Shown here: piece after piece, positions 41,495 through 63,240 of the stretch | Position numbering within the stretch: position 1 is the stretch's first letter | Layout: every line of letters starts with the position of its first letter | Source: Dyella sp. OK004 | GTDB lineage: Bacteria; Pseudomonadota; Gammaproteobacteria; Xanthomonadales; Rhodanobacteraceae | Reading direction: 5' to 3' | DNA: 64,000 nucleotides | Assembly: GCF_900114495.1 (NCBI RefSeq) | Contig: NZ_FOZI01000001.1 | Span: 73,132 to 137,131 of the forward strand | Position numbers and translations under genes: made by a program | The notes under the pieces: model-generated | What the model was told of the DNA's origin: nothing | What the model saw: only the letters and a program-made list of their open reading frames with translations | Databases searched by the model: none

Positions 41495-41612
41495 GCGATT
41501 ACTCTCGGCCGGCGGCGATCCGGCGAGTGTTGTTCAATTGTCCGACAAATTCAAATAGGCCCGGGAATTTCGGCTTCATTCCAAGGGTGTCCGCTTTGAG
41601 TCGAAAGCGGAC

Positions 41613-41669
41613 ATTCAACACTGGAGTTAAGTGGAGCCGGAGGCGTCCGCCTTGAACGAATAGTTAGGC
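41613..41669 (-). other. attC-like integron recombination site
   Basis: On the minus strand the 57-bp stretch begins GCCTAAC (fits RYYYAAC), continues TATTCGTTCAAG, has a central region, then CTTAACTCC, and ends GTTGAAT (fits GTTRRRY). The TTCGTTCAAG and CTTAACTC boxes are those of classical 59-base elements. The stop codon TAA of the upstream VOC gene is inside the first core (GCC TAA C), as in genuine gene cassettes. No second site of equal quality and no integrase gene were found in the window. Confidence 0.65.
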
Positions 41670-42035
41670 AGCATGACTTGCTTCGTCATCACCATCCGCT
41701 AACGGAAAGAGCAGCTCGTTGTCATCGGGATCGTCAATCTGGATCACATCGTAGCCCCACCAGGATTTCTTGCTAGGAATGGAGCGCTCAGCAATTTCGC
41801 GCTTGAATTCCGCAATACCCTCACGAGTGAGCTCTACAAACAGGCGCCCTTTGTCTCTACGTCCAGCATCCTCGTAAAGAATAATTTCACAGCCCGCTCT
41901 ATCGACTTGACATACCTTGCCCTGCCCATCGCCCTCGTGCCACGCCCTTTTGAAACCAAGCATATCGGTATAGAAGTGCAATGCACGATTGACGTCACTG
42001 ACAAAGAGGACCGGCCTTGCATACCACCTATGCAT
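41664..42035 (-). CDS. VOC-family (glyoxalase/bleomycin-resistance fold) protein, cassette-like
   Basis: About 123 residues from the ATG at 42035 (GGAG 7 nt upstream). One vicinal-oxygen-chelate domain: HRWYARPVLFVSDVNRALHFYTDMLGFKRAWHE at the start, VDRAGCEIILYED in the middle and IDDPDDNELLFPLAD at the end, the last normally holding the metal-binding Glu. VOC proteins include glyoxalases, dioxygenases and antibiotic-binding proteins; no specific substrate can be inferred. The stop codon lies inside an attC-like site, as in an integron cassette. Confidence 0.85.
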   Translation of the reverse strand: MHRWYARPVLFVSDVNRALHFYTDMLGFKRAWHEGDGQGKVCQVDRAGCEIILYEDAGRRDKGRLFVELTREGIAEFKREIAERSIPSKKSWWGYDVIQIDDPDDNELLFPLADGDDEASHAA

Positions 42036-42301
42036 GATATTTCTCCGAGGGTACGTTGCGCGTCCCAACTACCGAATAGACGGACGTGCACGTCCGAATT
42101 ATAGATCTGCGCTCACCTGCTGAACGCGGCCCCTAGTCACCAACTGTCCGCTTTGGGTCGAAAGCAGACGTTAACGATGCCTCAAGCATCGCCAATCTAA
42201 GGGAACAGACTCTCTGAGCCGCTAAAGCGACTGCTTCCTACCCTGCTACACGGCTTTGCTCGGCGGCATCGGTTCTGACGAATTAGCGGGCTTTCATAGC
42301 A

Positions 42302-42613
42302 CTACGGCAGTCTGAACTTGCGAGTGGTGCGCAGCGGCCAGATGGATGTGAAGCGGGTGCCGCCTGCCACGCGGAAGGCGGCTGAAACGCCGTTCAGAAC
42401 GCCCAATCCTTCGAGAACGTCTTTTGCGCGCCGAAACGAATTTCGCGGGTCAGACGCAAGCATGAAAAGATTGATCTCTTTTGGACTGACATCGTAGCCC
42501 TCCAGTTCGACTGCATTGCCCAATGCCTCCTTCAACTTTCCCTCAATCGCTGCGAGAAAGGCTTCGTCGGCCAGAGACTTGCGCCAGAACTTGATGACGA
42601 GCTGATAATCCAT
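42302..42613 (-). CDS. Small conserved hypothetical protein
   Basis: 103 residues starting MDYQLVIKFWRKSLADEAFL. A compact alpha/beta pattern with AIEGKLKEALGNAVELEGYDVSPKEINLFMLASDP and AKDVLEGLGVLNGVSAAFRVAGGTRFTSIWP. No signal peptide or membrane helix. I do not recognise a characterised family. It begins 19 bp after the stop of a frameshifted membrane gene and may have been co-transcribed with it. Confidence 0.7.
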   Translation of the reverse strand: MDYQLVIKFWRKSLADEAFLAAIEGKLKEALGNAVELEGYDVSPKEINLFMLASDPRNSFRRAKDVLEGLGVLNGVSAAFRVAGGTRFTSIWPLRTTRKFRLP

Positions 42614-42632
42614 TGGGCGATTGTAAGCCCAA

Positions 42633-42855
42633 CTATCTCCACTTCCACCGAAAAACCCGAACCCGCCCCCAGATCAGTGCAACCCAACCGCCTGCGATGC
42701 CGTAGATCGCCAGCAATGCTCCGACAAACGGCAACGGAAGAAAGCGGATAAGTGGAAGCTAGAACCACCAAGCCAAAGCCGCAGAGCGCGCAAATGAAGG
42801 CCATCCCGCCACAGATAGCGGGGCCAAGCACTTCGCCTTCCTTAGCTAACCGCAT
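42633..42855 (-). pseudogene. Frameshifted small two-helix membrane protein
   Basis: The reading frame starts MRLAKEGEVLGPAICGGMAF and forms one membrane helix up to CGFGLVVLAS, then turns basic and non-hydrophobic. Moving frame near 42735-42765 restores a second helix, IRFLPLPFVGALLAIYGIAG then GWVALIWGRVRVFRWKWR, ending at a TAG at 42633-42635 just before the next gene. This is best explained by an indel in a formerly intact protein of about 74 residues. Confidence 0.6.
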
Positions 42856-42930
42856 GAGATCGCCCCTGCCTGCAACCTTCCCGCGGAGCCATCGAACAAT
42901 GTCCGCTAAGGGTTGGAAGCGGACCGTGCA

Positions 42931-43197
42931 CTAGCTCAGATGGAAGCCCACGATCAAGATCAATAACCCCATGCCAAACGCCGCTCCCATAGCCATCCAA
43001 AACCGGGTTCCTCGTACAAGCAAGGTCAAGGTGAACACGGCGCCTGCACACGAGTAGGAATCAACGGATGCCGAAGGATTGGACTGACTCCATGGCCTAA
43101 GAATGAGCAGATATTCCAAGGCGAAACATGTGATCACAAGCCGAGCGTGCCAATTCAAGTTCCATGATTTCGCCAATGTCATCGTCCCCGGCTTCAT
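42931..43197 (-). CDS. Small membrane protein (paralogue of 48067-48327)
   Basis: About 88 residues, with helices HARLVITCFALEYLLIL, CAGAVFTLTLLVRG and FWMAMGAAFGMGLLILIVGF. It aligns along its length with the product at 48067-48327: AKSWNLNWHARLVI against AREWNLSWRLRLVI, LLILRPWSQ against LLFARPWSG, and DSYSCAGAVFTLTLL against GAYTCSAAFLTLALV. Start uncertain (43236, 43197 or 43182). A palindrome copy begins 7 bp beyond the stop. Function unknown. Confidence 0.7.
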   Translation of the reverse strand: MKPGTMTLAKSWNLNWHARLVITCFALEYLLILRPWSQSNPSASVDSYSCAGAVFTLTLLVRGTRFWMAMGAAFGMGLLILIVGFHLS

Positions 43198-43383
43198 CGC
43201 GTGCACACACCGACGAAGTTGATCAATCGAAGCCATGGGTCGCGATCAGCGCGCCAGGATCTTGATCAGCGTTGGCCTATGGGCCGGAATCGGCCAGGAG
43301 CGGTCATATGTTTGTGCTGGAAGCACGCCCGCGACTTGATACAGTACGACGATAAACCCGCACGAACCTGAAGTGAGCCATCT

Positions 43384-43971
43384 ATGGGCAAATTACCTTC
43401 CCGTGCTATGCCGGAACCGCAGAGTTTTCGGTCATCAAAAGAACTTCGCGCATGGATGGCGAAGGAGCACGCCCGAGCCCGTGGTCTGCTCCTGCGAATT
43501 TACAAGAAAGACTCTGGTGTTCCATCGGTCACGTATGCCGAGGCGCTTGACCAGGCGCTATGTTTCGGTTGGATAGATGGGAAAAAGCTGCCGTTTGACG
43601 CGAACTCCTGGGTGCAAAAATTCACCCCGCGCAGGGCGAAAAGCGGTTGGTCCAAGATAAATGTTGCGCATGTGGATCGGCTTATCCAGGAGGGCCAAAT
43701 GACGCCTGCTGGTCTCAAGGAAGTAGAAGCGGCCAAAGCTGACGGGCGCTGGACCACTGCGTATGATTCTTCCGCTAACGCAACGGTGCCTCCGGAGTTC
43801 ATCGAGGAGCTCGCACGTAACGCCAAGGCAAAGCAGTTCTACGCAACGCTCAACAAAGCCAATCTGTATTCGATTGCCTACCGGTTGCAAACAGCAAAGC
43901 GCTCAGAGACAAAGATCAAGCGCATAAAACTGATTATCGATATGCTCGCGCGCGGCGAGAAATTTCACTGA
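43384..43971 (+). CDS. YdeI/OmpD-associated family protein
   Basis: 195 residues, cytoplasmic. Typical segments are SFRSSKELRAWMAKEHARARGLLLRIYKK, TYAEALDQALCFGWIDGKKLPFD, FTPRRAKSGWSKIN and VPPEFIEELARNAKAKQFYATLN, followed by a basic C-terminal helix (RSETKIKRIKLIIDML). The family is linked to resistance to peptides and antibiotics in some bacteria, but the biochemical activity is not known. One of the few plus-strand genes in this block; its flanking palindromes keep the common orientation. Confidence 0.88.
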   Translation: MGKLPSRAMPEPQSFRSSKELRAWMAKEHARARGLLLRIYKKDSGVPSVTYAEALDQALCFGWIDGKKLPFDANSWVQKFTPRRAKSGWSKINVAHVDRLIQEGQMTPAGLKEVEAAKADGRWTTAYDSSANATVPPEFIEELARNAKAKQFYATLNKANLYSIAYRLQTAKRSETKIKRIKLIIDMLARGEKFH

Positions 43972-44300
43972 CTGCCCAGGCCAGTGCGTCGAAGCACTGC
44001 CATTCGCCACTCCCGCGTCCATGATCGCCTCTCCTAAGCTGCCCTCTCCAGCCGCGGCCGCCGACAGGCCGCTTGGGGTCGAAAGCGGACACTGCCCGAC
44101 AGCGCACAAGCGGCCGATCTGTGTATGGGGCGGAAACGGACGTCGTGAGTTACAGGCTCCGCCAAGCGTCCACGTCACTCGACCCTCCAGCCAAATCCTG
44201 GCAGGGAGCATCGAAACACGCCTGTCTTTCAATCATAGGCCGACTGCGGTGCGGAAAATCGGCTCGCGCTGCCGAACCTCCGCAGCAACGTTGCTATTCA

Positions 44301-45026
44301 TTAAGTCGAATGGATCCACGCCAGCAACGCCTGGGTTGGTGGCGAGAACGCTACCGGGCCCGTAATCAGCATGCTGATCATGATGATACCAACGCCCCAT
44401 AGATAAGCTGCGTGTACCCGGCGTCGCGTGAACAGGTCATACGCTGGCCCGGCGAGGGCAAACAGCATGATCACCCCGAACATCACCATTGGTGCGGCAT
44501 GCCCGAACGAGTCCATGGGTAACAGCCGACCAACGCCAGGCCCGAGGATCGACACCGTGGCGCACAGCATCAGTCGGCGATGCCAGTCAGCCTGGCGGCG
44601 AAGCTTCACGCCCGCCGTCACCAGGACGCCGAACACGAGGATGCCAAGGGTGTTCATGGCGAGGAAGACAGCCGGCGGGAAAAATGATGGCACCAGGTTG
44701 TCGTGTATGGCGAGGAAAGTCGCGGTTAAGGCCATGACCACCATAGCCGCCGCAAGGACCGCGCCCGCCAGGCCGAGGCGTCGATGAAGCCGGATCGATC
44801 CGCGAAGGACCAGTGCCGGCTGCATCACCAACAGCACGACCCACAGCGAGAAGATTGCGCCGTGGACATAGAGGAGCACAGGCAAGCTTGGTGACGCAGT
44901 GAAGTCATCCGGAACCGTGCGGGAGAAACCCCCAATGATTACGGCGGCCATCACGAGCGACAGGATCAGATAGAACGCCGGTCGCGTTCTGGGCGCCGCA
45001 CGACCGGCCACGTCAATGCTGGTCAT
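44301..45026 (-). CDS. Conserved integral membrane protein
   Basis: About 241 residues from the ATG at 45026 (GGGGAA 6 nt upstream). Six to seven helices; histidines in LLYVHGAIFSLWVVLLVMQ and SIRLHRRLGLAGAVLAAAMVV and the QADWHRRLMLCATVSILGPGVGRLL segment recur in this uncharacterised family. The histidines within helices are reminiscent of haem-binding membrane proteins, but no ligand is established. The 43972-44300 and 45027-45477 spacers hold palindromes and no supported gene. Confidence 0.75.
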   Translation of the reverse strand: MTSIDVAGRAAPRTRPAFYLILSLVMAAVIIGGFSRTVPDDFTASPSLPVLLYVHGAIFSLWVVLLVMQPALVLRGSIRLHRRLGLAGAVLAAAMVVMALTATFLAIHDNLVPSFFPPAVFLAMNTLGILVFGVLVTAGVKLRRQADWHRRLMLCATVSILGPGVGRLLPMDSFGHAAPMVMFGVIMLFALAGPAYDLFTRRRVHAAYLWGVGIIMISMLITGPVAFSPPTQALLAWIHST

Positions 45027-45477
45027 TACACTTCCCCGATATCGAACACCCCGGAAGAATCGTAGCCGACACGATTCGCCGCGGACAGGCATCGAGCGCG
45101 GAAATAGGTGGACCAGACGCTCTATATCGAAAGTAGGCGCCGACATTCCCCCAGCTATTGCAGCTCAGCGCGCGTCCATATCCGACGGGTGGAATAACTA
45201 TCGGGCGAAGAACTGTCCGCTCCGGGTCGGAAGCGGACATCTCACTCATCAGTTACTCGTCTAGTGCCGACACCACTAGAACATTAAATCCTGAGTGTAG
45301 AAACCATCGCCGGCGCATGTCACACACTCGGCCTACGCCAACCGCCTGACTTGACGCAGCAACCGTTCGTCACGGCCCAGCGCCCGCCCATCACCCATCG
45401 CATGTCACGCATACCGGCCCGCGCCAATATGGGATCGCGCACCTCCACGTCCCCATCCAGCCAGGGCCACCATCGCC

Positions 45478-45990
45478 ATGAACCACATCCCATCGAAATC
45501 CCTCCTTAGCCGTCGCGCAAGCACGCTGCTGACGTCGCTCGCCATCGGCCTGACCAGTGTTGCCGGGCATGCCGCCGACACCACGCACGCCAAGCCCGAT
45601 GAAACCGCTCACACCGAAGCCGCCGTGCTTGCGACGGAGGATCATTGGGAGCAGGCCGAAGGCACCGGCGACCTGATGTATCTCGAGCAGTTGCTGATTC
45701 CCGAATACCGCTCCGTCGGGTTCAACGGAAACGTTCACGCCAAGGCCGACATTCTTGCCCATGCGACGAAGAATCGTGATTCGGACAAAGGCATGAAGGA
45801 GATCAAGGCCTATCTCAAAGCGCACCCCACCGGACATACCGTGGTGATTAGCGGCGACGTGGCCATCGTCTCGTTCTACGACCAGACCCTCGGCCCGCAA
45901 AAAGGCGTGCGGTCCTCCGATGTCTTCGTCTACTACAACGGCGGCTGGCACGCTGCGTATTCGCAGCATACGGAGGTCGGCAAGAGCTAA
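45478..45990 (+). CDS. Secreted SnoaL/DUF4440-like protein
   Basis: 170 residues with a signal peptide (SLLSRRASTLLTSLAIGLTSVAGHA). The mature part is an NTF2-like cone: AAVLATEDHWEQAEGTGDLMYLEQLLIPEYRSVGFNG, VVISGDVAIVSFYDQTLG and SSDVFVYYNGGWHAAYSQHTEV. DUF4440 domains are found in enzymes and in ligand-binding proteins; no catalytic residues can be assigned. Plus strand, isolated. Confidence 0.82.
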   Translation: MNHIPSKSLLSRRASTLLTSLAIGLTSVAGHAADTTHAKPDETAHTEAAVLATEDHWEQAEGTGDLMYLEQLLIPEYRSVGFNGNVHAKADILAHATKNRDSDKGMKEIKAYLKAHPTGHTVVISGDVAIVSFYDQTLGPQKGVRSSDVFVYYNGGWHAAYSQHTEVGKS

Positions 45991-46043
45991 GTGCATAGCG
46001 GGGTCAGGCTGAGCTGGCCCCGATCTTGGTACGGAGCCTGGCC

Positions 46044-46289
46044 CTAGTTTCCTGGTGGTCGCAACTCGCAGCTATCGACAACAGCAGCAAGTTCATCCGC
46101 GTGCTTGGCGAAGCACGCAAAAACGGGCCTGGCATCGACCTTCAGTGGCCTCGTCTTGGTGTCGGCACTGGCAGCGAGGTCAGCGAGTTGCCATAGCACG
46201 TCGCGGATCTCGCATAACCGGCGGTACGCGTGCTCGGGGAGGTCGTAGTGCAGCGCGAGGGGCTGCGGCTTGCGTGCGATACCGGCCAT
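46044..46289 (-). CDS. XAC0095-like small protein
   Basis: About 81 residues from the ATG at 46289 (GGAGACACC upstream). The segment HYDLPEHAYRRLCEIRDVLWQLADLAASAD resembles the Xanthomonadaceae-restricted XAC0095 family as I recall it, helical and cytoplasmic. Its presence supports the taxonomic placement. Function unknown. Confidence 0.6.
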   Translation of the reverse strand: MAGIARKPQPLALHYDLPEHAYRRLCEIRDVLWQLADLAASADTKTRPLKVDARPVFACFAKHADELAAVVDSCELRPPGN

Positions 46290-46533
46290 GGTGGTGTCTC
46301 CTTGGCGTGGACTCGTTGGTTTCGCCCAGGTGCGGCACACCGTGCGCAATGCACGACGTGCCGCGGGGCGATCACAGGACTCAAGGGCTCACCGACGGCT
46401 CATGCGTGAGCGCCGGTGCGGTGTGATTGAAGAAGTGGATCGCAGCGTCTGCACTTTCCATCGAGGCACGCGGCAACGCGCCGGGTGCAACGGCATAAGT
46501 GGATTCGCATGGAAACGGCAGCGCCGCGGTTCC

Positions 46534-46635
46534 TCAATCGTGTTCGCTGATAACGCGAACCGCCCGGTTGATCGGTGAGGGTGCCGCCGAGGGGTTTGGC
46601 GGGCGAGCAAGTACCGTATGATCTGGCCTAGCCAT
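46534..46635 (-). CDS. Possible 33-residue peptide
   Basis: MARPDHTVLARPPNPSAAPS and then PINRAVRVISEHD, with a well-placed GGAGTTGAT before the ATG at 46635. Pro/Arg-rich and without a signal peptide. Supported only by the ribosome-binding site; may be chance. The interval 46636-46985 upstream shows no gene. Confidence 0.35.
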   Translation of the reverse strand: MARPDHTVLARPPNPSAAPSPINRAVRVISEHD

Positions 46636-46985
46636 ATCAACTCCTGTGTAAGTTGGTTTGGTTAGCGAGTCAGGGGTGCTCCAACACCTCTGGCTCGCGC
46701 TTCTACACTGCATCACTGCAATGGTTGCTTGCGTCGACGTGAGACAGACTCCGCGAGCAACGGAACGAAGCTAGCAAAAGATCAGATGGACGTCTGTAGG
46801 GATTGGACTGCACGCTACGTGCGGAATGTGTCGGCTGCTGGTGGTGTTTGCGAATGCTGTCTATAGGAGCGCCAGCCACTCCTCTGCTGCGAGCCATTCG
46901 ACTTGAGCTTCGTGGGCAGTCTGCGGTTCCGGGAGAGCTAACTCTGAAAATCCAATACGCCCGGGTTTCGCCGCCTTTGGACATC

Positions 46986-47450
46986 TCAGCGAGGGATGTC
47001 ACCTCGGTTTACTTCCCAGAAGGTTTTGCCCGAGTGGGATCGGTCAATGAAGTAGTGGTAGTTCCCCGAACGTATCGCGTCCATGGCGGCCACCGCGTCC
47101 TCGACTGTCTTTTTGTCGGTATGCGTCAGCAGATCGTGAAGTGTCGGCAATGCGTCCGGCCTCAGCGAGTAGGCGAGCAATCCGCACGCGCGATAACGCA
47201 CCAGGGATGCCCTGTCCTTGCATCCAAGAACTCCGAGTTGAAACGCCTCTTCGCTGATGCGAGCAAATCCCGTTGCGTAGAACAGCAGCGAAACTCTTGC
47301 CCGTGCCTGACGAAATTTCGGGTACGCCTCAAGAAAATGAGGCACGACCAGGGCGCCAAGTGGCTTTAACTTCTGCCATACGTCCTCATGCTCCAAGGAC
47401 GAAGGCGACTGGAAGCGCAAAACGTGCTCGTGAATTGCTGCAGTTTCCAT
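46986..47450 (-). CDS. HEAT-repeat-like hypothetical protein
   Basis: About 154 residues from the ATG at 47450 (GGAGACAG directly upstream). Helical repeats typical of HEAT/PBS-lyase proteins are visible: ISEEAFQLGVLGCKDRASLVRYRACGLLAYSLRPDALPTLHDLLTH, TDKKTVEDAVAAMDAIRSGNYHYF. It follows the YcxB-like gene by 22 bp with no palindrome between them, so the two form one unit. Function unknown. Confidence 0.7.
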   Translation of the reverse strand: METAAIHEHVLRFQSPSSLEHEDVWQKLKPLGALVVPHFLEAYPKFRQARARVSLLFYATGFARISEEAFQLGVLGCKDRASLVRYRACGLLAYSLRPDALPTLHDLLTHTDKKTVEDAVAAMDAIRSGNYHYFIDRSHSGKTFWEVNRGDIPR

Positions 47451-47472
47451 CTGTCTCCATGTCCCTGATGAC

Positions 47473-47955
47473 CTAACGAGAAGCGACCGCTTCGTGCCAG
47501 CGCTTGGCGTCTTGAAGAAAAGCCTCTTTCGCAGCCCGATCGGAAAATGCTCGCTCCGGAACAAGTATCGAATTACCGGAGGTACTGACGATCGCTATGA
47601 GGCCGAAGGCACTCTCAATCGATGCGACCTGCCCCCAGGACCGCGAGCCGGACTTTCTCCCAATCTGCGTAGACCAACCTTCGGGCCCCACATCTAGAAT
47701 GCGTTCCTTGCTCTTGAACATCACCTGTGGCCACGCCGCCATCAGGGTGATCAAAATCAACGCTGTCAGCAGGAATCCGACCAAGAGTTTGCTCGGCCCA
47801 AGCTTGGTGCCCGACAGCGCCACGATCATCCCAAATGCAGCTGCGGCGCTTAGTAGGTGCCACCACCAATACTTGGCTCGCCAAACACGCCAATACCACC
47901 GCCAGACCTCCATGCGGCCCGATCGGTAGCGAAGGGAATAGGTTTGCTCGCTCAT
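47473..47955 (-). CDS. YcxB-like membrane protein
   Basis: About 160 residues from the ATG at 47955 (MSEQTYSLRYRSG). Two helices (KYWWWHLLSAAAAFGMIVALSG; KLLVGFLLTALILITLMAAW) precede a PH-like C-terminal domain, LDVGPEGWSTQIGRKSGSRSWGQVASIES ... NSILVPERAFSDRAAKEAFLQDAKRW, the pattern of YcxB proteins. A longer ORF extends the N-terminus into the palindrome at 48028 (HVRFRLIADI) and is an artefact. Confidence 0.75.
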   Translation of the reverse strand: MSEQTYSLRYRSGRMEVWRWYWRVWRAKYWWWHLLSAAAAFGMIVALSGTKLGPSKLLVGFLLTALILITLMAAWPQVMFKSKERILDVGPEGWSTQIGRKSGSRSWGQVASIESAFGLIAIVSTSGNSILVPERAFSDRAAKEAFLQDAKRWHEAVASR

Positions 47956-48066
47956 ATTTTCCATACGTCGCGCATCTTCCATGGCCCCCCGATGTCTCTT
48001 ACTAGAGACCCATTGTGAGCTTGCAATGTCCGCTATGAGCCGGAAGCGGACATGCGAAGCCACCGA

Positions 48067-48327: not shown

Positions 48328-48402
48328 GCAGCCCTCTCTACATGTTTTTAAGAAAAGTATCGCAATGTCCGCTATGGGTCGATAGCGGACCTTGGCGTCA
48401 TG

Positions 48403-48795: not shown

Positions 48796-48923
48796 TGCTG
48801 TCTAGCTCCTCGGTTAGCGAGTCCAGGTAAATCCTTGCTGACGTCCGCTTCGGGTCGGAAGCGGACATTACGCAAATGATGAGGCCTCACGAAGATCACG
48901 AGTGAGGCTCAAGAGCTCGCGGA

Positions 48924-49397: not shown

Positions 49398-49558
49398 CGT
49401 TCGTACCTTTCTTCGGTGGCGAATTCAATTCTGAAGTGCATCACCTGATGGGGTGAAGCCGCCCAGGCGCGCTAGCCTGGGCGGCTTCACCGCCAAGCGG
49501 AACTGCACATGAGTGTGTATGTCCGCTTCGGGTCGGAAGCGGACCTCCCGGCGGTCAT

Positions 49559-49948
49559 CTAGTCTTCGCACTTTGACGGCACTGCGTCCTCGCCAAAATG
49601 CATCTCGACTGCCGTTCGCACCAAACCCGGATAAGCAAACCAGTATTGGCGCCTCGTAGCATCCGTCACGAAGTCAGCACCGTAGTCATTGATGGCCAAG
49701 CGGCGCTCGAACTCCGACAACGGGGCTCGATCAAAGCTGAGAAGCACGCGCCTATAGTGGGTCATCAGGCGCCTGAAATCTCCAACGCAACTGATTCCGA
49801 GCGCTCCCAGTTCTGTCACCAACTCCTCGAATGAACCATCACCGTAGTCATTCCTTCGCGGAAAGAGGTTCGACATAGCTTGGTGTATCAGGGCTCCGGT
49901 TAGGGGCCTTTCGTAGGCGATCCGCCTAGCGGGTAATCGACTCACCAT
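49559..49948 (-). CDS. Hypothetical protein
   Basis: About 129 residues from the ATG at 49948 with AAGGGGG upstream. Helical, containing RNDYGDGSFEELVTELGALGISCVGDFRRLMTHYRRVLLSFD and a C-terminal WFAYPGLVRTAVEMHFGEDA. The repeated patterns NDYGDGS and NDYGADF are notable. Not recognised; no signal peptide. An upstream extension reads through the degenerate palindrome at 49966 and is not real. Confidence 0.6.
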   Translation of the reverse strand: MVSRLPARRIAYERPLTGALIHQAMSNLFPRRNDYGDGSFEELVTELGALGISCVGDFRRLMTHYRRVLLSFDRAPLSEFERRLAINDYGADFVTDATRRQYWFAYPGLVRTAVEMHFGEDAVPSKCED

Positions 49949-50004
49949 TGCCCCCTTGTGGAAATATCCGCTCCGGGTCAAAAGCAGATACTTGTTCCTA
50001 AGCA

Positions 50005-50445: not shown

Positions 50446-50589
50446 TTCACCCCCTCCAAGAAAAGCCAAACCGACCGTTTTGTGATGTCCGCCTCGGGTC
50501 GGAAGCGGACGTCAGGCATCTCAAGACCTGGCGAATCTATTTCCAGTTACGCATGCGGGATACGACGGTGCAATGATCGCCCCCTGACA

Positions 50590-50611
50590 TAGTTAGATGA
50601 TTAGCTAACTA
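50590..50611 (+). promoter_or_regulatory. ArsR-type operator
   Basis: TAGTTAG, eight bases, CTAACTA: perfect 7-bp inverted repeat 8 bp before the ATG of the ArsR gene. ArsR/SmtB repressors bind palindromes of this size overlapping their own promoters. No clear ribosome-binding site lies between it and the ATG. Confidence 0.6.
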
Positions 50612-50618
50612 TCACATC

Positions 50619-51289: not shown

Positions 51290-51388
51290 TTCAGGCTCTC
51301 CTCGGGCTCGCGAGCTTGGTGGCCCGTGATGTCCGCTTTGGGTCGATAGCGGACGTCGCATAAGTGCCGCCGAACTTCGCCCGACACC

Positions 51389-51577: not shown

Positions 51578-51651
51578 CTTGAGAATCCCCTAACGTTGCT
51601 TCACGCAATGGACTAAGTCCGCTCCGGGTCGAAAGCGGACCTCGCGGAACT

Positions 51652-52149: not shown

Positions 52150-52250
52150 CCCTTGCTCCTATCGGTGCCTAGTGGTATCGGACAAATAGCCGCTTTGCGC
52201 CAGGACCGCTATGGGTCGGAAGCGAACGCCTTGCGATCTTCGCCCAAGCG

Positions 52251-52697: not shown

Positions 52698-52775
52698 TCT
52701 CCCCCCCTGTAGAAAAGGTGACGCTTGATGGTTTCCAGGCATCTCCGTATGTCCGCTTCGGGTCGATAGCGGACC

Positions 52776-53165: not shown

Positions 53166-53246
53166 CGATCGTCGCGAAGGTCATAGATAACTTTCATGCG
53201 ATTCCCAAGGCTCACTTTTGGTCTGCTTTGGGTCGGAAGCGGACCT

Positions 53247-54083
53247 TTAACTCAACACTGCCCGCGACTTGATGTACGCACGAATCCGATCCTCGTCCGC
53301 GCTGGTCGCCGGGTTGTACACGATCATTCCCAGATCCGGCCGCCCATCAACAGCGAAGGCGGAAAACTCAAGCTCCAGGAGACCCAGTTCGGCATGGTGC
53401 AGGCGCTTTACGCCCTCTCCGTAGGCGTTGACGTCGTTGGCCAGCCATAGCACTTCGAACTCGGGACTCAGTCGGGACAGCTCTTCAACGAACTGGCCGA
53501 TCTCCGCAACAGCGCCCGCACGCGCAGCGTCTGCACGAAATGCGCCGACAACGAACCGGGCCACGCTTTGCCAGTCTTCCTGCGCGGCGCGTACCCGTGA
53601 ATTGGAAAAGATCAGCCGCAAAATATTCCTCTCTGCGGGAGGTAGCGCACCGTAGTCCGTGAGCACAGCCGCCGCTGCGCGGTTCCAGGCCACGACATCC
53701 CATAGGGCGGTCTTGACGATCGCGGGGCTGACCTCCATCGCCTCGAGTACACGTTGCAGCCGCGGCGTGACGCCTTCAACGGCTCTGTAACGGACTTCGG
53801 GTGGATGACCGAGGCCCAGTATGAAAAGGTGTTCGCGCTCCGGTTCGGTCAGCATCAGCCCGCTGGCGATACGGTTGAGCACATCTGCCGAGGGCGCCCC
53901 TCCCCGCCCCTGCTCCAGCCAGGTGTACCAGGTGGGGCTTATGTTGGCGCGTTGGGCGACCTCTTCCCTGCGCAGGCCTGGCGTGCGCCGGCGCCCGCCA
54001 GTGAAGCCAAAGGCAGCCGGGTCGAGCCGGTTGCGCCGGTCTTTCAAATAGGTGCCGAGCTGATTGCCGATAGGCGTAGACAT
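53247..54083 (-). CDS. MmyB-like helix-turn-helix transcriptional regulator
   Basis: 278 residues. N-terminal Xre-type HTH preceded by LGTYLKDRRNRLDPAAFGFTGGRRRTPGLRREEVAQRANISPTWYTWLEQGRG, then an MmyB ligand-binding domain (VVAWNRAAAAVLTDYGALPPAERNILRLIF, HHAELGLLELEFSAFAVDGRPDLGMIVYNP), which in this family binds a fatty acid. Divergent from an NAD-dependent reductase gene at 54182; this pairing of MmyB regulator with SDR gene is common and suggests direct control of the neighbour. Confidence 0.93.
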   Translation of the reverse strand: MSTPIGNQLGTYLKDRRNRLDPAAFGFTGGRRRTPGLRREEVAQRANISPTWYTWLEQGRGGAPSADVLNRIASGLMLTEPEREHLFILGLGHPPEVRYRAVEGVTPRLQRVLEAMEVSPAIVKTALWDVVAWNRAAAAVLTDYGALPPAERNILRLIFSNSRVRAAQEDWQSVARFVVGAFRADAARAGAVAEIGQFVEELSRLSPEFEVLWLANDVNAYGEGVKRLHHAELGLLELEFSAFAVDGRPDLGMIVYNPATSADEDRIRAYIKSRAVLS

Positions 54084-54181
54084 GGCGATCCTGTTGGTTC
54101 TTATACCCTGATAACGTCACTTCTTTACCAGTATGAGCGCTGGAATAAGTTAGATCCAATACCCATCTTTGGAGACTCTCC

Positions 54182-55078
54182 ATGCGCATATTCCTGACCG
54201 GCGCGACCGGCTTTATCGGCTCCCGGATCGTGCCGGAGTTGCTCGCCGCCGGACATCGCGTTCTTGGCATGACACGATCGGATGAGGGTGCGCATGCTCT
54301 CGCCTACGCTGGCGCCGAGGTGCATCGCGGCCATCTGGAAGATCTGGACAGTCTGCGCAGCGGCGCAGCCAAGGCGGACGCCGTGATCCACACCGCGTTC
54401 GATCATGATTTCTCCAATTTCGTCGCCAACTGCGAGAAGGATCGGCAGGCCATCAAGGCAATGGGTTCGGCGCTGGCGGGTTCCGACCGTCCGCTGCTGA
54501 TCACGTCGGGAACGGGCATGGGAAGCACCATGCCAGGCAAGCCTGCGACCGAGGATGTCTTCAATACAGAACATCCCAACCCGCGGTCGGCATCGGAGGT
54601 CGCGGGGGCGGAGATGCTCGCGGCTGGTGTCGCCGTGTCAGTCGTGCGGCTTCCGCAGGTGCATGACACGGTGAGGCAGGGCCTTATCAGCCCGTTGATC
54701 GCCATGGCCCGCGCCAAAGGTGTATCGGCCTATGTCGGCGAAGGGCTCAACCATTGGCCAGCTGCGCATGTGCTCGACGTGGCGCGGCTCTATCGGCTGG
54801 CGATCGAGAAATGCGAGCCGGGCGCGCGCTATCACGCCGTTGCCGAAGAGGGTATTCGTGTTCGCGATATCGCCGAAGTGATCGGTGCAGGCTTGGGTGT
54901 GCCCGCAAAGTCCATCTCGCCGAGTGATGCGGGAGATCATTTCGGATGGTTGGCCGGATTCGTCGGCATGGACCTATTGGCGTCGAGCGCGTGGACACGC
55001 AAGGTTCTGGAATGGCATCCGAGCGGCCCAGGCCTGCTAGACGATCTCGAACGGATGGACTACTCCAGCGTCCGCTGA
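54182..55078 (+). CDS. SDR-family NAD(P)-dependent epimerase/reductase
   Basis: 298 residues. Rossmann motif MRIFLTGATGFIGSRIVPELLAAGH (GxxGxxG) and a second strand ending in D/E-poor R31, favouring NADPH. The active-site Tyr-x-x-x-Lys of extended SDRs is replaced by a non-canonical region (SASEVAGAEMLAA), common in atypical members. Divergently transcribed from the MmyB-like regulator. Probably oxidoreductase activity on a small carbonyl or flavin-like substrate; uncertain. Confidence 0.9.
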   Translation: MRIFLTGATGFIGSRIVPELLAAGHRVLGMTRSDEGAHALAYAGAEVHRGHLEDLDSLRSGAAKADAVIHTAFDHDFSNFVANCEKDRQAIKAMGSALAGSDRPLLITSGTGMGSTMPGKPATEDVFNTEHPNPRSASEVAGAEMLAAGVAVSVVRLPQVHDTVRQGLISPLIAMARAKGVSAYVGEGLNHWPAAHVLDVARLYRLAIEKCEPGARYHAVAEEGIRVRDIAEVIGAGLGVPAKSISPSDAGDHFGWLAGFVGMDLLASSAWTRKVLEWHPSGPGLLDDLERMDYSSVR

Positions 55079-55138
55079 ACGATCTACCTGTTTCAATGTG
55101 TTGCAACGACCGCCTGAAGTCGCAGTCGAAAGCAGACA

Positions 55139-55438: not shown

Positions 55439-55519
55439 AGCACCGTCCTTAGATGGGGAAGTGGCTTGTCCGCTTTGGGTCGGAAGCGGACATTCGTTCA
55501 TTGAACGCTCGACCCCAAG

Positions 55520-55843: not shown

Positions 55844-55918
55844 CTTCCCCTCCCTTTAGGATCACGACCGCTTCCGAGCAAAATGGTCCGCTTCGGGTCG
55901 GAAGCGGACACTTACCAC

Positions 55919-56731: not shown

Positions 56732-56972
56732 GACTTCCCCTGTGAAAGACCTGCATAAGTGGCTAATCAGTATCGGTCGTCCACCGACGGACCACCAGAG
56801 TCCCGGATTTCCCAGAGTATCAATTGGGGAACCTTTGCTTGGCAGCCGTGCCCTCTTTCGAAGAGCGCAAGCGTGCATTCGCTATCTGGTTCCATCCATA
56901 ATTGATGGCCCAGTAGTTGCCTCCCCCGAGGCCTAACCCATTGGGTTCGCTACCGGTCGGAAGCGGACCTTC

Positions 56973-57383: not shown

Positions 57384-57448
57384 GTGCCCGATCCTTCGAT
57401 CCAACTGTGGCCTTGCCGTCTGGGCCCGCTTTGGGTCGGAAGCGGACT

Positions 57449-57727: not shown

Positions 57728-57769
57728 TCATTCCCCTAGTTCGACCGGACCCATCTTGTTTGTGTCGCC

Positions 57770-58063: not shown

Positions 58064-58103
58064 TCCCCCTAAGAATGTCCGCTTTGGATCGGAAGCCGAC
58101 TGA

Positions 58104-58679: not shown

Positions 58680-58774
58680 GTCCTCTCCCCTGATTTCTGA
58701 CCCAAATCCCTTTTGCCCCCCCTCTAGAATGTCTGCTATGAGTCGGAAGCGGGCTTTGCCAAAATGCCTCTTTG

Positions 58775-59101
58775 TCAGCAACCACCGGCGATTCCATGTA
58801 GGAACTCACCAAAGGCCTCTGAGATTGTCACGGGCGCAATGTAATAGACCCACCCTAGAGCACCTCCAACGTAGTACCCCAAAATTCCGCTTCCAATCAC
58901 CAGTGTTGCCCGCTTCTTTGAACGCGTGGCATAGAGTTCGAACATGCCTAGAACCAGCGTGCATAACACTGCGATTGCGAATGCAAGATCACGGGGATAT
59001 CGGTGACCGCCGCATTGCGACATCCCCAGATAGAAGCTTTCAGCTCCCGCGATAAGCACAGCTCCAACGGCGGCAGATATCCAATCCGGTGCTCCATGCA
59101 C
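58775..59101 (-). CDS. Small membrane protein
   Basis: 108 residues with three or four hydrophobic segments (ISAAVGAVLIAGAESFYLG, LAFAIAVLCTLVLGMFELY, LVIGSGILGYYVGGALGWVYYI). No recognised family. The ATG at 59101 has AGGGGGT upstream. Palindrome 58731 lies just beyond the stop. Confidence 0.6.
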   Translation of the reverse strand: MHGAPDWISAAVGAVLIAGAESFYLGMSQCGGHRYPRDLAFAIAVLCTLVLGMFELYATRSKKRATLVIGSGILGYYVGGALGWVYYIAPVTISEAFGEFLHGIAGGC

Positions 59102-59200
59102 CCCCTCTGCTGACCAGCCCGAAGTGTCGCCCCAATTAGTGTCCCCGGGCTGCCGGGCTTATGTCGGGCCCGGGCGAAGGCCGACCTAAGTGCTTCTTCG

Positions 59201-59677
59201 TTACTTGCGACCCTTAAGGCTTTGAGTGACCCGAATCGCCGTCGACCGCTCGCTTGCCAACCCAGAGTTGCCGCAGTTGTCTACGAAGTCCGCCGGGAGA
59301 GGCTCCTTCCCCGCAAACTCTGGTTCGGACGATTGCTCAATAAAAAGCAGATAGTCCTTTCCCTCAACCATCGGGAAGCGTGAAGTCGTGTTCGGGGAGA
59401 CAAGCTTGACCGATCTAGGCGGCCGACCCTTATAAACGGCCAAAACCTTGACTTCATAGATGGTCCAGTCAAAGCCGGCCGGATCATCTGGGCTCGAAAT
59501 ATTCTTGGTGCGCGTCGGCCGACCGAGCACGACGAACTTTGAGCTTGCGTACTCGGCTGCGACGGTGAGATGACGAGGCACATCAACCGGGCCACTGAGA
59601 TCAACGCATGCGCCATGGGACGCCAAAGGAATCGACAGCGATAGGTACGCCAGAAGAAACCAGCATCGGCGCGGCAT
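59201..59677 (-). CDS. Secreted hypothetical protein
   Basis: About 158 residues from the ATG at 59677: signal peptide MPRRCWFLLAYLSLSIPLAS, then an OB-like pattern AAEYASSKFVVLGRPTRTK ... DWTIYEVKVLAVYKGRPPRSVKLVSPNTTSRFPMVEGKDYLLFIEQS and a C-terminal VDNCGNSG. This pattern (FxVxxVYKG ... LxxGxxYLLF ... CGxS) resembles netrin/TIMP-like secreted domains in bacteria. Assignment tentative. Confidence 0.65.
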   Translation of the reverse strand: MPRRCWFLLAYLSLSIPLASHGACVDLSGPVDVPRHLTVAAEYASSKFVVLGRPTRTKNISSPDDPAGFDWTIYEVKVLAVYKGRPPRSVKLVSPNTTSRFPMVEGKDYLLFIEQSSEPEFAGKEPLPADFVDNCGNSGLASERSTAIRVTQSLKGRK

Positions 59678-59769
59678 TAACCTAATCGAGTCCACAGGCC
59701 CCTCACTGTCCGTGATTAGGTCAAATTGTGCCAAGGTCTGCTTCGGGGCGGAAGCAGACCTGAGCGAAA

Positions 59770-60222
59770 CTAACGCTTGGGCTCCCACAGCTCGACCTTG
59801 TTTCCTTCGGGATCCAAAATCCAGGCAAAGCGGCCGTTGGGGTCTTTGTCGTCACGCTTAAGAACCGTGACCCCCTTTGATCGCAACCGCGCGAGCAACG
59901 CATCCATATCATCCACGGCGTAGTTGATCATCAATCCACTCGTCGATGGCGCGAAGTAATTTGTCGCCGCGGGAAACGCATTCCATGCCAGCACGGGAGG
60001 ATGCTTTGGCGCGTCATAGTGGAGCGCCGCGCCTCCCCAGGCTTCCACCGGCATGCCAAGAACATCGCGATACCACGCCGCGAGAGCCTTGGGGTCCTTC
60101 GCCTTGAAAAATATTCCGCCGACACCGGTGATGTGTCCGGCTGGAGGCGCGGATGCGGCCGTCGCCAAGCCGGTTATTGAAAGCACGGTTAGACATAGAA
60201 GGAAAATCGATCGCCGCTTCAT
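59770..60222 (-). CDS. Secreted VOC-family protein
   Basis: 150 residues from the ATG at 60222 (AGGGGG upstream) with a signal peptide MKRRSIFLLCLTVLSITGLATA, unusual for VOC proteins, which are normally cytoplasmic. Domain segments are GVGGIFFKAKDPKALAAWYRDVLGMPVE, INYAVDDMDALLARLRSKGVTVLK and FAWILDPEGNKVELWEP with the terminal Glu metal ligand. An extension upstream through the 60271 palindrome (VRFRPIADI) is false. Confidence 0.85.
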   Translation of the reverse strand: MKRRSIFLLCLTVLSITGLATAASAPPAGHITGVGGIFFKAKDPKALAAWYRDVLGMPVEAWGGAALHYDAPKHPPVLAWNAFPAATNYFAPSTSGLMINYAVDDMDALLARLRSKGVTVLKRDDKDPNGRFAWILDPEGNKVELWEPKR

Positions 60223-60316
60223 CAAAGCCCCCTGAGTTTGTGTGGCTTGCCCCATTCTGATTGCAGGTATGTCCGCTATGGGTCGGAAGCGGACCTTACG
60301 AGAATCACCCAACTGC

Positions 60317-60718
60317 CTACTGTGCCGACATGGCGCTCATGTGGAGAAGCCCCCACCCATGGCCGTCCAGGTCGACAAAACTGTGCGTGTACATGAAGCC
60401 AAAATCCTCCGGCTTGTCGTAGGTCGAGCCACCCGCTGCGATCGCTTTGGCGACGAGACTGTCTACCTCCTCGCGGCTCTCGCAACTGAGGGAGAGGAGA
60501 ACCTCGACGGCCTTGCTCGTGTCGCAGATGGCCTTGGGCGTGAAGTCGCGAAACCTGGCATGCGTAAGCAACATTACGGAAATCGTGTCGCTGACGACGA
60601 TGCACGCGCCAGCGTCGTCGGTGAACTGTGGATGGCGGGAGAAGCCAAGTGCCTCGAAGAAGGCGATTGACTTCGAGAGGTTGGCGACGGGGAGATTGAT
60701 GAACACTCGTTTGCTCAC
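60317..60718 (-). CDS. VOC-family protein
   Basis: 133 residues: MSKRVFINLPVANLSKSIAFFEALGFSRHPQF ... ACIVVSDTISVMLLTHARF ... YDKPEDFGFMYTHSFVDLDGHGWGLLHMS. Close to the lactoylglutathione-lyase-like group often annotated as extradiol dioxygenase-like. Cytoplasmic. Start at 60718 has GGAGAAATTC upstream. Neighbour of the secreted VOC protein, separated by the 60271 palindrome. Confidence 0.88.
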   Translation of the reverse strand: MSKRVFINLPVANLSKSIAFFEALGFSRHPQFTDDAGACIVVSDTISVMLLTHARFRDFTPKAICDTSKAVEVLLSLSCESREEVDSLVAKAIAAGGSTYDKPEDFGFMYTHSFVDLDGHGWGLLHMSAMSAQ

Positions 60719-60994
60719 GAATTTCTCCTTTGTGCTGTTGGTAGCGATGATGTGCGTTGGTGCTTAACTACCTAATAGATCGACGCGCGCTTCCGGCGAA
60801 CAATCTGGCGCAAGGCGGCGTCGACTGCCTCCTCGGGAGGTCCGCTACGGATCGGAGGCGGACATCCACAAGCGTAAACCTTCACAACCGTATTCCGCGA
60901 TGAGCGTGATATCCCCCCCCCTTGGCAAATCACCTACTGGAGCCAGCCACCTGCAGGTCCGCTCCAGCAGAAGAACCGCCGCCGTATTGCAGCG

Positions 60995-61558
60995 CTAGAG
61001 ACCCTCGATCAACCCCAGGATCTTCTGATATTGCTCCAAGTGATCGGGCGCCTTGATCATGTGCACCAATACAGCCGCAATCGCCGCCTGCTTCACCATG
61101 GCCATACCGGTTTCCTGTGACACCTTCTGCAATTCGCGCAAAGCGCCGGCTACCGTGTTCATGATGTCCCGCGCCGCATGGGACCAGGAACCAGCGTTAT
61201 CGAGTCCGTGCTTATTCGCCGACTCGATCGCCTGCTCGATGTGCGCCAAGGCGTCCGGTGAGGTTGTGGCCGCCAGCGTCTGCGGCAGAGCAGAAGCCTT
61301 GTTTTCGTCGGGCGGTGTAGCGTTATCCGCGCTGTCCATAGACAACAGTTGCATCACGGCTTGCGTAGTCGCGGCTTGCATCAGGACGTTACTTTGCTGC
61401 TGGCTACTAACGGCATTATGCGCGGCATTGACCAGGGCCTGTGCCGCGCCCTGATAGAGCTGGCTCAGGGAAATGGCCAGCGCACCGCCAGGGATCTGGG
61501 AGCTGGCTTGCGTTACGGCATCGCTGATTTGAGGGTTAACCGAGGACGGCATCGACAT
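60995..61558 (-). CDS. RebB-like R-body protein
   Basis: About 187 residues from the ATG at 61558 (GGAGCTCTC upstream). MSMPSSVNPQISDAVTQASS then GALAISLSQLYQGAAQALVNAAHNAVSSQQQSNVLMQAATTQAVMQLLSMD is the RebB/R-body signature (VNxQITDAVTQ ... LYQ ... ALANAAxNAxxxQQQ). R-bodies are extendable protein ribbons first known from Caedibacter. The Ala/Gln-rich C-terminal half is longer than in minimal RebB proteins. No rebA, rebC or rebD companion is visible in the window, so it is an orphan here. Confidence 0.78.
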   Translation of the reverse strand: MSMPSSVNPQISDAVTQASSQIPGGALAISLSQLYQGAAQALVNAAHNAVSSQQQSNVLMQAATTQAVMQLLSMDSADNATPPDENKASALPQTLAATTSPDALAHIEQAIESANKHGLDNAGSWSHAARDIMNTVAGALRELQKVSQETGMAMVKQAAIAAVLVHMIKAPDHLEQYQKILGLIEGL

Positions 61559-61867
61559 GAGAGCTCCTTCAGAGTAGTGGGTCACCTGATAGCGCTTTAT
61601 TTAATCTGCGCAGTAAGTCAGGACATCTAATGCTTCGGTGTGCATGGCCAGTCAAAAAATGTTTTCAGCATGGTCAGCCCGCTTTCGATCAAGCTCTTCC
61701 ATTGCCGGTGATGTCCTATTCGGATCGAAAGTGGACAGTTCGAGCTAGCCGAGCACGTACGCCAATCGCAAAGCTAGGTAGCCATCACGTACCGCAATGA
61801 AGCTGAGCCATCCATGCCAAGAAGCACGAAGGCAAACATGCCCTCGCTCTTGATTCACAACGTGGAA

Positions 61868-62638
61868 TCATTTGTCGTCACCGCCCAGCAGGGAACCTAC
61901 GATGCCCCCGAGCAAAGCACCACCGACAGTCGCTCGCCCACCACCGCCCTCGCTACTTGGCAGGTACTCGGCAATCTGGTGCGCCAGGCGCGAGATGGGC
62001 AATGTTTGCAGCCACACCGTGCCGGGGCCGGTCAGCGACGCCAGGAAGATGCCGTCGCCGCCGAAGATCGCATTCTTGATGCCGGGCACCGTGGTGATCT
62101 GAAAGTTGACCGAGGCCTGGAACGCACCGACGTGCCCGGGGTGAACCCGCAAAGTTTCGCCGGGCGCCAGATCCTTCCGGATAAGCTCACCGGAGAGTTC
62201 CAGCCAGGCCGTACCCGTGCCGCCAAGCTTCTGCAGCATGAAGCCACTGCCGCCGAAAATGCCGGCGCCCAGCGACTGTTGAAAACCCACGCTGATGGTG
62301 ACTTGTGGCGTGGCGCAGAGAAAACCGTGCCGATGCACAAGGTATTCGTTACCCGGGCTTACCGTTACCGGCACGATATGCCCCGGTACTTTGGTGGCAA
62401 AGGCCACCTCTCCCGGCGCCCGCATGGCCCGGTACTCGGTCATGAACAAGCTTCCGCCGCCGACCACGCGCTTGAACGCACCAAACAGACCCCCACCGCC
62501 ACCCATCTGGGTGTGAGTGGTCATCTGGATCGATGAAGTCATCCACGAAAGCTCTCCGCTTTCTGCGAAGACGCTGTCGTTGGGATCAAGCTGCACTTCC
62601 AGCACGGGCATCACCGTGCCCTGAATACGCGTCTGCAT
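61868..62638 (-). CDS. AIM24/TIGR00266-family protein
   Basis: 256 residues. The beta-rich trimer-forming fold is visible from MPVLEVQLDPNDSVFAESGELSWMTSSIQMTT through GGSLFMTEYRA, GIFGGSGFMLQKLGGTGTAWLELSGE and FGGDGIFLASLTGPGTVWLQTLP, with the repeated SGFxLQKLxGxG/GDGIFLAxLxGxG pattern. The tail is glycine-rich (GGGGRATVGGALLGGIVGSLLGG), typical of the bacterial members. The family is widespread but without a defined activity. The 61559-61867 spacer upstream of the RebB-like gene carries a degenerate palindrome only. Confidence 0.9.
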   Translation of the reverse strand: MQTRIQGTVMPVLEVQLDPNDSVFAESGELSWMTSSIQMTTHTQMGGGGGLFGAFKRVVGGGSLFMTEYRAMRAPGEVAFATKVPGHIVPVTVSPGNEYLVHRHGFLCATPQVTISVGFQQSLGAGIFGGSGFMLQKLGGTGTAWLELSGELIRKDLAPGETLRVHPGHVGAFQASVNFQITTVPGIKNAIFGGDGIFLASLTGPGTVWLQTLPISRLAHQIAEYLPSSEGGGGRATVGGALLGGIVGSLLGGDDK

Positions 62639-62695
62639 AGAGTGTTCTCGTGATGATGGATGGTTGTCTGGGAGTTTTCGAAATCAGTGTGCGCT

Positions 62696-62824
62696 TTAGG
62701 TCGAAAGCGGCGCTATCGCGCCATCATGCTCTTCGATGACGACAGCTTGCGCACGAATAGTGGCGGCGTGCGCCAACGGAGTAACAGCGGCCAAGAGGCA
62801 CGCCATCGGCAACATCCATTTCAT
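62696..62824 (-). pseudogene. Secreted-protein remnant ending in a palindrome
   Basis: After GGGGGGGCGAAC the ATG at 62824 begins MKWMLPMACLLAAVTPLAHA, a good signal peptide with an AHA cleavage site. Then TIRAQAVVIEEHDGAIAPLS runs straight into the degenerate palindrome at 62689-62712, which supplies the TAA. The 42-residue product looks like the N-terminus of a secreted protein cut off by palindrome insertion or deletion; a functional short peptide is the alternative. Confidence 0.5.
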
Positions 62825-63175
62825 GTTCGCCCCCCCTGAAGAATGCTTCCCTGCACAACCCATTGGCTATCAGCGGCGTGCCTGCCACCGCAGGCGTTCC
62901 TCACGCAGCTGACTAACTATGACGGAGCCGCGCGCCTAGACGAATACCCGTCGTCGGTCTCCCGAAGTGATGCACTAGTTCGTAGGCCGCGTGGCGCCTA
63001 ATCGTGCAGGGGTGAAAAGGTGACGGTCAATATGCTGATGTGGTCGTTCGTGAAATTCGGGGCGAGCGCCAGCAGGAATGACTGGGGCACCTATCGCAGC
63101 ACTTGGGGCGAAAGAATTTGCGCCATGGACACCACCATGAGTGGGGGTAGGCGGACCTAAAGATCGATGCTTTAG
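62825..63175. other. Spacer without supported gene
   Basis: About 350 bp before the last palindrome (63176-63199). Reading frames here have no ribosome-binding site, no recognisable fold and pass through the palindrome. Nothing else identified. Confidence 0.5.
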
Positions 63176-63240
63176 GTCCGCTTCGGGTCGAGAGCGGACA
63201 TTATCAGACCGCCAACGCGACAACCTTGCCGCCACGCCAA

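Follow-up and report, generated by a model that had tools for sequence, protein, structure and literature searches.

An array of like-oriented sites beside fliK

The 64,000-nucleotide stretch of the Dyella sp. OK004 genome analyzed here (the window; contig NZ_FOZI01000001.1, positions 73,132 to 137,131) carries, beside fliK, a run of small genes separated by copies of one short repeat. This repeat family spans 41583–63199 (28 copies, all on the + strand), and the array that it delimits (array 1, 41589–63199, + strand) contains 28 like-oriented sites and 27 intervals occupied mainly by single minus-strand genes. The region is probably an array of mobile gene cassettes, and a 207-residue protein encoded outside the window is the candidate recombinase. 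The sites, all on the + strand, begin at 41589–41612 (site 1, the outer left edge). Sites 2 to 5 follow at 42146–42169, 42901–42924, 44067–44090 and 45215–45238; sites 6 to 10 at 48028–48051, 48367–48390, 48843–48866, 49521–49544 and 49966–49989; sites 11 to 16 at 50487–50510, 51331–51354, 51617–51640, 52204–52227, 52751–52774 and 53221–53244; sites 17 to 22 at 55468–55491, 55886–55909, 56945–56968, 57424–57447, 58077–58100 and 58731–58754; and sites 23 to 25 at 59736–59759, 60271–60294 and 60840–60863. Sites 26 (61713–61736) and 27 (62689–62712) are diverged, and site 28 (63176–63199), the outer right edge, adjoins fliK. The C-terminal part of FliK (63241–63984, − strand) belongs to a chromosomal gene outside the array. 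At the left edge, chromosomal homology to the relative G003 ends at 41580, 9 bp short of site 1. In five other genomes of the genus (G001–G005), no array was found within 20 kb beside fliK, so this locus offers no clean before/after comparison.

In a first pass, a 24-bp consensus with up to three mismatches gave 21 matches, every one on the + strand, compared with none in 100 shuffles. A weight matrix was then built from 66 copies in the Dyella sp. OK004 genome (28 from the window and 38 others). Scanned over 41000–64000, it returned 28 sites on the + strand and none on the − strand, with a median spacing of 587 bp (range 286–2813 bp). Every array 1 site scores at least 20, and the best score elsewhere in the window is 8.1, in agreement with a sequence-only reading of this DNA that had called the element nearly absent from the rest of the window. 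That reading had counted 29 like-oriented copies; the uniform orientation stands, but the 29th copy, at 55108, is a decayed half-site (best score nearby, −6.3). Its proposed relic at 32091–32120 does carry GTCCGC and GAAGCGGGC, but with a shortened middle and a score of −8.9. No Rfam match was found in 40000–64000.

Alignment of the 66 copies defines a conserved unit of 30 bp, AAT-GTCCGCTTYGGGTCGRAAGCGGAC-MTT, which resolves into AAT GTCCGCTT YGGGTCGR AAGCGGAC MTT. The two 11-bp arms are inverted copies of each other, and the 8-bp middle is asymmetric. Outside the 30 bp, none of the positions in 60 bp per side exceeds 0.25 bits. Complementarity between opposite flanking positions is about what composition predicts, with no conservation or pairing past 3 bp per side. 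Single-strand DNA folding (four folds of three sites) gives a hairpin of approximately −10 kcal/mol, and the site is not followed by a T-run. The repeat had been described as a 24-bp palindrome with a loop. The repeat itself is real, but the conserved unit is longer and is better read as a double-stranded core site of a tyrosine recombinase, resembling loxP rather than attC. In Cre-loxP and Flp-FRT sites, too, inverted arms flank an asymmetric 8-bp spacer on which direction depends; the arms there measure 13 bp in place of 11. The third loxP-like property, exchange within the spacer, is considered below.

For a family-wide view, 26 array loci were compared (three from the Dyella sp. OK004 genome; the remaining 23 come from eight further genomes in the family). 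Intervals of 150–1600 bp between like-oriented sites number 194, with a median of 459 bp. A dominant open reading frame (ORF), defined as one covering half or more of the interval, is present in 176 of these units, and in 168 of the 176 it has one and the same orientation to the site. The median distance from the stop codon to the adjacent site is 14 bp in these units, and that from the start codon to the site at the opposite end is 31 bp. With start codons this near the neighboring site, cassette expression would rely on outside promoters.

Thirty-four ORFs of the array region in the window were scanned, and 19 have no Pfam match at an E value of 0.001. The matched ORFs include glyoxalases, SnoaL/DUF4440 proteins, an ArsR-type regulator, an epimerase, RebB and AIM24. 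The RebB family gene (Pfam 'Killing trait') occupies 60995–61558 within the array. PADLOC, run on ten of the 34 ORFs, gave no defense match, and these ten therefore provide no defense-island reading. The longest site-free stretch (45239–48027, 2.8 kb) contains a DUF4440 gene on the + strand and a gene on the − strand with a sub-cut-off HEAT match; sites within it may have decayed. A two-gene unit at 53247–55078 pairs an MmyB-like regulator gene (−) with an NAD-dependent epimerase gene (+), with no recognized site between them. An 8-kb query containing this unit matches 118 plasmid records, and the 12 matches listed all cover the regulator–epimerase pair at ~67–69% identity.

Exact units and the point of exchange

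Across the 4.96-Mb genome, a search with up to three mismatches finds 53 matches, which fall into three single-strand clusters (C8:114.7–136.3 kb, the window array, +; C7:158.3–183.0 kb, −; and C8:1083.1–1092.4 kb, −) plus two solitary copies. Within the clusters this search finds a single odd-strand copy, which lies just beyond a recombinase gene. The weight matrix places 20 sites in array 2, all on the − strand, including weak ones with scores down to 17. In array 3 it places 17 sites on the − strand and two on the + strand, one beyond the recombinase gene and the other 8 kb off at L037:1045. Among neighboring sites no more than 2.5 kb apart in the 26 loci, 204 pairs point in the same direction and three in opposite directions, with one of the opposite pairs bracketing the recombinase gene. 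In a later set of six loci from G024 and G004, all 61 of 61 neighboring pairs agree. Dense, randomly oriented copies elsewhere in the genome, which the sequence-only reading had named as an outcome that would speak against it, are thus not seen. Sites with the same arms and other middles (GGCGC, GGCAC) occur at G344:C2 76177–131989 and G234:C13 76259–87437, in one orientation per contig and at wider spacing, and five viral contigs carry one exact site each.

The 26 loci were also compared all against all, which yielded 95 high-scoring segment pairs (HSPs) of at least 120 bp. An HSP end was scored as on a site when it lay within 20 bp of a site center in both sequences, and the control consisted of circularly shifting the site positions around each locus 500 times. 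Eleven of the 95 HSPs run from site to site in both copies (maximum in the 500 shifts, 0), and 35 of the 190 ends coincide with a site in each copy, compared with a mean of 0.13 and a maximum of 2 in the shifted controls. In the later set, 2 of the 22 HSPs and 16 of the 44 ends qualify, with control maxima of 0 and 1. Boundaries unrelated to the palindromes, another outcome that had been named as contrary, are therefore not what is observed: a clear minority of ends coincides with sites, far above chance, which supports the earlier proposal of capture or spread by site- and orientation-specific recombination.

Individual cassettes illustrate this behavior. G007 and G001, from different genera, share two cassettes of 764 bp (98.7% identity) and 391 bp (99.0%), and in both the match stops at the sites, with different flanks beyond. 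Within the window, the cassette at 49521–49989 (− strand) has a site-to-site homologue in G001 at L208:10820–11290 (79.6%). The cassette at 58731–59174 (− strand) is matched at 92% by a copy in array 2. This homology runs from site 22 to about 59174; at that end array 2 carries a site (L040:2164), and the window shows no more than the trace of a site.

These observations bear on a simpler explanation, in which the repeat would be a terminator, or an element resembling a repetitive extragenic palindrome (REP) or a miniature inverted-repeat transposable element that inserts near gene ends, and no cassettes would move. The hairpin and its position close behind stop codons fit such an element. However, as the sequence-only reading had argued, a terminator would flip with its gene, and the polarity is unchanged at the eight of 176 units whose genes run the opposite way. 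Moreover, entire gene units rather than the repeat alone recur between different flanks, the genome holds just the two solitary copies, and the T-run is missing. Both the terminator and the REP readings were rejected on the basis of polarity and the exact recurrence of whole genes, and an explanation of this kind is scarcely credible.

The point of exchange was examined at the ends of closely related pairs. In pairs at least 88% identical, flank identity is 0.26 outside and 0.95 inside at 10 left ends, and 0.93 inside and 0.25 outside at six right ends. With the later loci added (21 ends), 51 mismatches fall in the outer arm (11 bases), 22 in the middle (8 bases) and 17 in the inner arm; restricting the count to pairs at least 96% identical (10 ends) gives 19, 9 and 3, respectively. 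Because mismatches in the outer arm are three times those in the inner arm (51 vs 17), exchange lies in the site middle. The drop in mismatches follows the first middle base, at the start of the invariant GGGTC core, and the exact base of exchange is consequently unreadable. Whether junctions always fall at one base had been suggested as a test; the mismatches do switch sides mid-site, but the base itself is hidden by this core. The inner arms of compared ends sometimes differ. The sites at L037:16151 and L039:13491 have an unusual right arm and a cassette in common and differ in their left arms, and those at L037:15933 and L039:13273 have the left arm in common and differ in their right arms. 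Exchange in the middle of the site is as in Cre or Xer, whereas the folded attC reaction exchanges at the site edge. The mid-site position therefore argues for a double-stranded reaction and against folded-single-strand recombination, and the chemistry of exchange is probably double-stranded.

Alternatively, the arrays could have been formed long ago by such a system and now be shuffled solely by homologous recombination between the repeats. The rarity of the intact enzyme among array-rich genomes (see below) is in line with this idea. Still, the near-identical cassettes with different flanks in two genera speak against it, and 30 bp is short for homologous recombination; this alternative is considered unlikely.

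A candidate recombinase and its flanking sites

The capture proposal can be refined by a candidate enzyme whose gene lies outside the window. A 207-residue ORF at L037:9183–9806 (− strand) heads array 3, which begins 61 bp from the ORF start; it is transcribed away from the array, whose genes in turn point away from it, as in integrons, and it has a site on either side. The protein matches the catalytic domain PF00589, and no core-binding domain was detected. Residues Arg58, Lys86, His155, Arg158, His181 and Tyr190 are invariant in 30 aligned sequences and correspond to the R, K, H-x-x-R, H and Y of the active site, the set that together with the catalytic domain defines a tyrosine recombinase. 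A structure model (mean predicted local distance difference test score, pLDDT, of 85.8) finds XerA, XerH, Cre and integron integrase among its Foldseek matches, with TM-scores of ~0.5–0.6. Profile comparisons place the protein outside the named families: it stays below the XerA, XerC and XerD cut-offs, with 74 bits against the NCBIfam XerA model (cut-off 220), and scores 33.5 of 222 and 19.7 of 221 bits against two NCBIfam models of tyrosine-type DNA invertases, and 23 bits against the IntI profile (cut-off 265). FimB/FimE-type invertases, which flip one promoter, are also ~200 residues long and lack a separate core-binding domain, so the size and domain plan are alike, with a weak NCBIfam similarity far under the cut-offs.

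The genome contains a single intact copy and no other close one, with two further matches at 28–29% identity. Homologues at an E value of 1e-40 or better are present in 39 of 299 sampled Pseudomonadota genomes (~one in eight), and at 1e-20 in 439 plasmid records. On a plasmid of a clinical Pseudomonas aeruginosa (L059:7527–12591), genes annotated as a phosphonate transport and dehydrogenase set and as a LysR regulator precede the recombinase gene. Just past the far end of array 3 (L037:18491–19750), a larger integrase is encoded (PF13356, PF22022, PF00589).

The flanks of the recombinase family were analyzed at the best 80 loci of one scan. A general hairpin detector was mostly negative around recombinase genes, and a half-site analysis was therefore made. 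De novo motif discovery in 77 thinned downstream flanks recovered cCGGCCAaaAGCgG.C.tT (log-likelihood 342, compared with 76 for the best shuffled motif), and 74 upstream flanks gave cGgCcGCTtttGGcCG (220 vs 53), ranked under ribosome-binding and start-codon motifs. They correspond to the array site's two inverted halves, with a GGCC middle. Full sites are denser close to the gene, at 0.127 per kb within 300 bp vs 0.028 per kb further away. Among 15 pairs of recombinase units compared, the homology starts and ends mid-site in two Pseudomonas pairs (L141/L143 and L152/L159); in the remaining pairs at least one end lies somewhere else, in many cases at or slightly past the downstream site.

Multiple sites with intervening genes accompany the recombinase gene in the Dyella sp. 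OK004 genome, in L094, where each gene stops shortly before a site, and in L203. The latter (L203:6632–9905) shows two site types, with ATGGCTAA-like and TTGACCCA middles; twice, a gene is followed by both types 57 bp apart, forming a composite that differs from the simple sites seen elsewhere. At L097:1072–6007 (G203), a recombinase gene is surrounded by six weaker sites that do not all point the same way. Decayed copies were also found. G001 has a broken one (L240:2377–2798) 1.6 kb from fliK with no recognized sites nearby, and this copy and the window array beside fliK may mark a shared ancestral locus. In G032, a 29-residue remnant lies 2.7 kb from an array.

Several observations weigh against the view that these arrays are built by site-specific recombination through this enzyme. 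In the HSP comparison, 155 of the 190 ends lie off sites, with many HSPs away from sites or in diverged copies, and related genomes are among those compared, so that independence of the HSPs is incomplete. At the 80 loci the full-site matrix places only six sites within 300 bp of the gene; the strong signal is for half-sites. Arrays beside the recombinase are rare, at three of 116 loci or remnants (36 plus 80, among which organisms may overlap). Site orientation is mixed in L094 (4 vs 2) and in L203, and L203 has its genes and sites in a different mutual arrangement. Of the ten array-rich genomes of the family (eight or more matches each), nine lack an intact gene at an E value of 1e-20, the exception being Dyella sp. 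OK004. Of the 39 genomes that have the recombinase, 16 show a related site pattern, as do 68 of the 260 that lack it, a weak association. Finally, the sites flanking the recombinase mostly have a GGCC-type middle, whereas the array sites here have GGGTC. A degenerate pattern (three mismatches) was found in 154 of 299 genomes, but its reversed control was also widespread and it was not used for co-occurrence. Either the arrays outlive their enzyme, as do the clusters of attC sites lacking integrases (CALINs) of integrons, or they are served by a different one; that the arrays consist of cassettes does not hinge on the enzyme assignment.

One candidate for another enzyme is host XerC/XerD, as in the dif modules (pdif) of Acinetobacter plasmids. 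That arrays persist in genomes without the 207-residue gene agrees with this possibility, and the part of PMC13141974 on dif modules describes XerCD as able to shuffle gene modules at 28-bp sites. These modules resemble the present cassettes in being bounded by sites of ~28–30 bp with exchange inside the site, and spacer identity matters there too, according to the same part of PMC13141974. In its description, dif modules reside on plasmids and depend on two host enzymes, with unlike arms, a 6-bp spacer and neighbors of alternating orientation. The array sites show neither XerC and XerD arms, nor a 6-bp spacer, nor inverted neighbors: they have like arms, an 8-bp middle, one orientation, chromosomal arrays and a dedicated candidate enzyme. 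A like consensus in both arms suits one enzyme rather than two, and the half-site is tied to the 207-residue gene family. XerC/XerD as the mover of these cassettes is accordingly held to have a low probability.

Comparison with integrons and proposed mechanism

In overall plan the arrays resemble integrons. As presented in sections of PMC8618304, integrons also comprise tandem, mostly one-gene cassettes of uniform orientation with the site behind the stop codon, a recombinase at the array head facing away, recombinase-less arrays, and exact cassettes shared across lineages; CALINs are described there as integron arrays that have outlived their enzyme. An integron cassette in the formal sense, one ORF plus a site, recurring as an exact unit in uniform orientation, is what the arrays contain. 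This common plan and the many cassette genes without a known family favor a standard chromosomal integron, or an integron-derived CALIN, with IntI and Xanthomonadales-type attC sites. Two defining features of integrons were, in contrast, not found: an IntI-type integrase, and attC R and L boxes with long pairing (the L boxes being judged by non-conservation). No protein in the whole genome exceeds the IntI cut-off, and the 207-residue enzyme, which falls far below it, lacks the N-terminal core-binding domain. The attC R-box motif occurs in 11 of 250 sites by a motif test (no attC covariance model was run), and both R boxes within 70 bp in six of 250, compared with 3.6 in shuffles. Sites of the attC class are 57–141 bp long, and since pairing does not extend past 30 bp, no attC of that length is present. 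The 30-bp site with its like arms, without R boxes, and with exchange in its middle rather than at its edge probably takes part in a double-stranded reaction. An ordinary integron is thus very unlikely.

The site anatomy, the near-uniform orientation of sites, the orientation of genes to sites, the exact units, the mid-site exchange and the half-sites around the recombinase family are all legible in the genomes compared. On this basis, the region is probably a mobile gene-cassette array built and shuffled by conservative site-specific recombination, with the 207-residue family as the most likely recombinase. In the proposed mechanism, a tyrosine recombinase would bind the arms and carry out strand exchange between them, in the manner of Cre at loxP, and a circular cassette with one site would recombine with a site in the array. 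Because the asymmetric middles must match, entry would be possible in one direction only, and a uniform array would result. The enzyme would come from the catalytic-domain-only family whose intact gene heads array 3; arrays 1 and 2, which have no enzyme gene, would either rely on the enzyme in trans or be stranded, as CALINs are. The circular intermediates, the double-stranded chemistry, the identity of the enzyme, the service of arrays 1 and 2 in trans and the reliance of cassette expression on outside promoters are the inferred steps of this scheme. Compared with Cre-loxP and Flp-FRT, which the sites resemble in layout and of which Cre is among the structural matches of the enzyme model, the natural use here would be cassette collection. 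Middles seen across lineages include GGGTC, GGCC, GGCGC, GGCAC and GGCTA, and their differences suggest separate recombination pools by lineage.

The system probably belongs with the cassette arrays made by tyrosine recombinases, and a class of its own would be deserved if the enzyme is confirmed. A literature search on the system, the site letters and the peptides, which covered neither preprints nor most subscription papers, found no description of it, and no such family was seen in the portions of PMC8138268 and PMC3414803 that classify tyrosine recombinases. On balance, the evidence leans toward a second, independently evolved cassette collector, consisting of a minimal one-domain tyrosine recombinase, 30-bp double-stranded sites and directional chromosomal arrays, whose middles would define separate pools. 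If this is true, natural spacer variants would provide compact recombinase–site pairs for testing, and these genomes would hold a store of genes invisible to attC-based tools. Chemistry like that of loxP would here do what integrons do with folded attC sites, and the array-gathering design of integrons would have arisen more than once.

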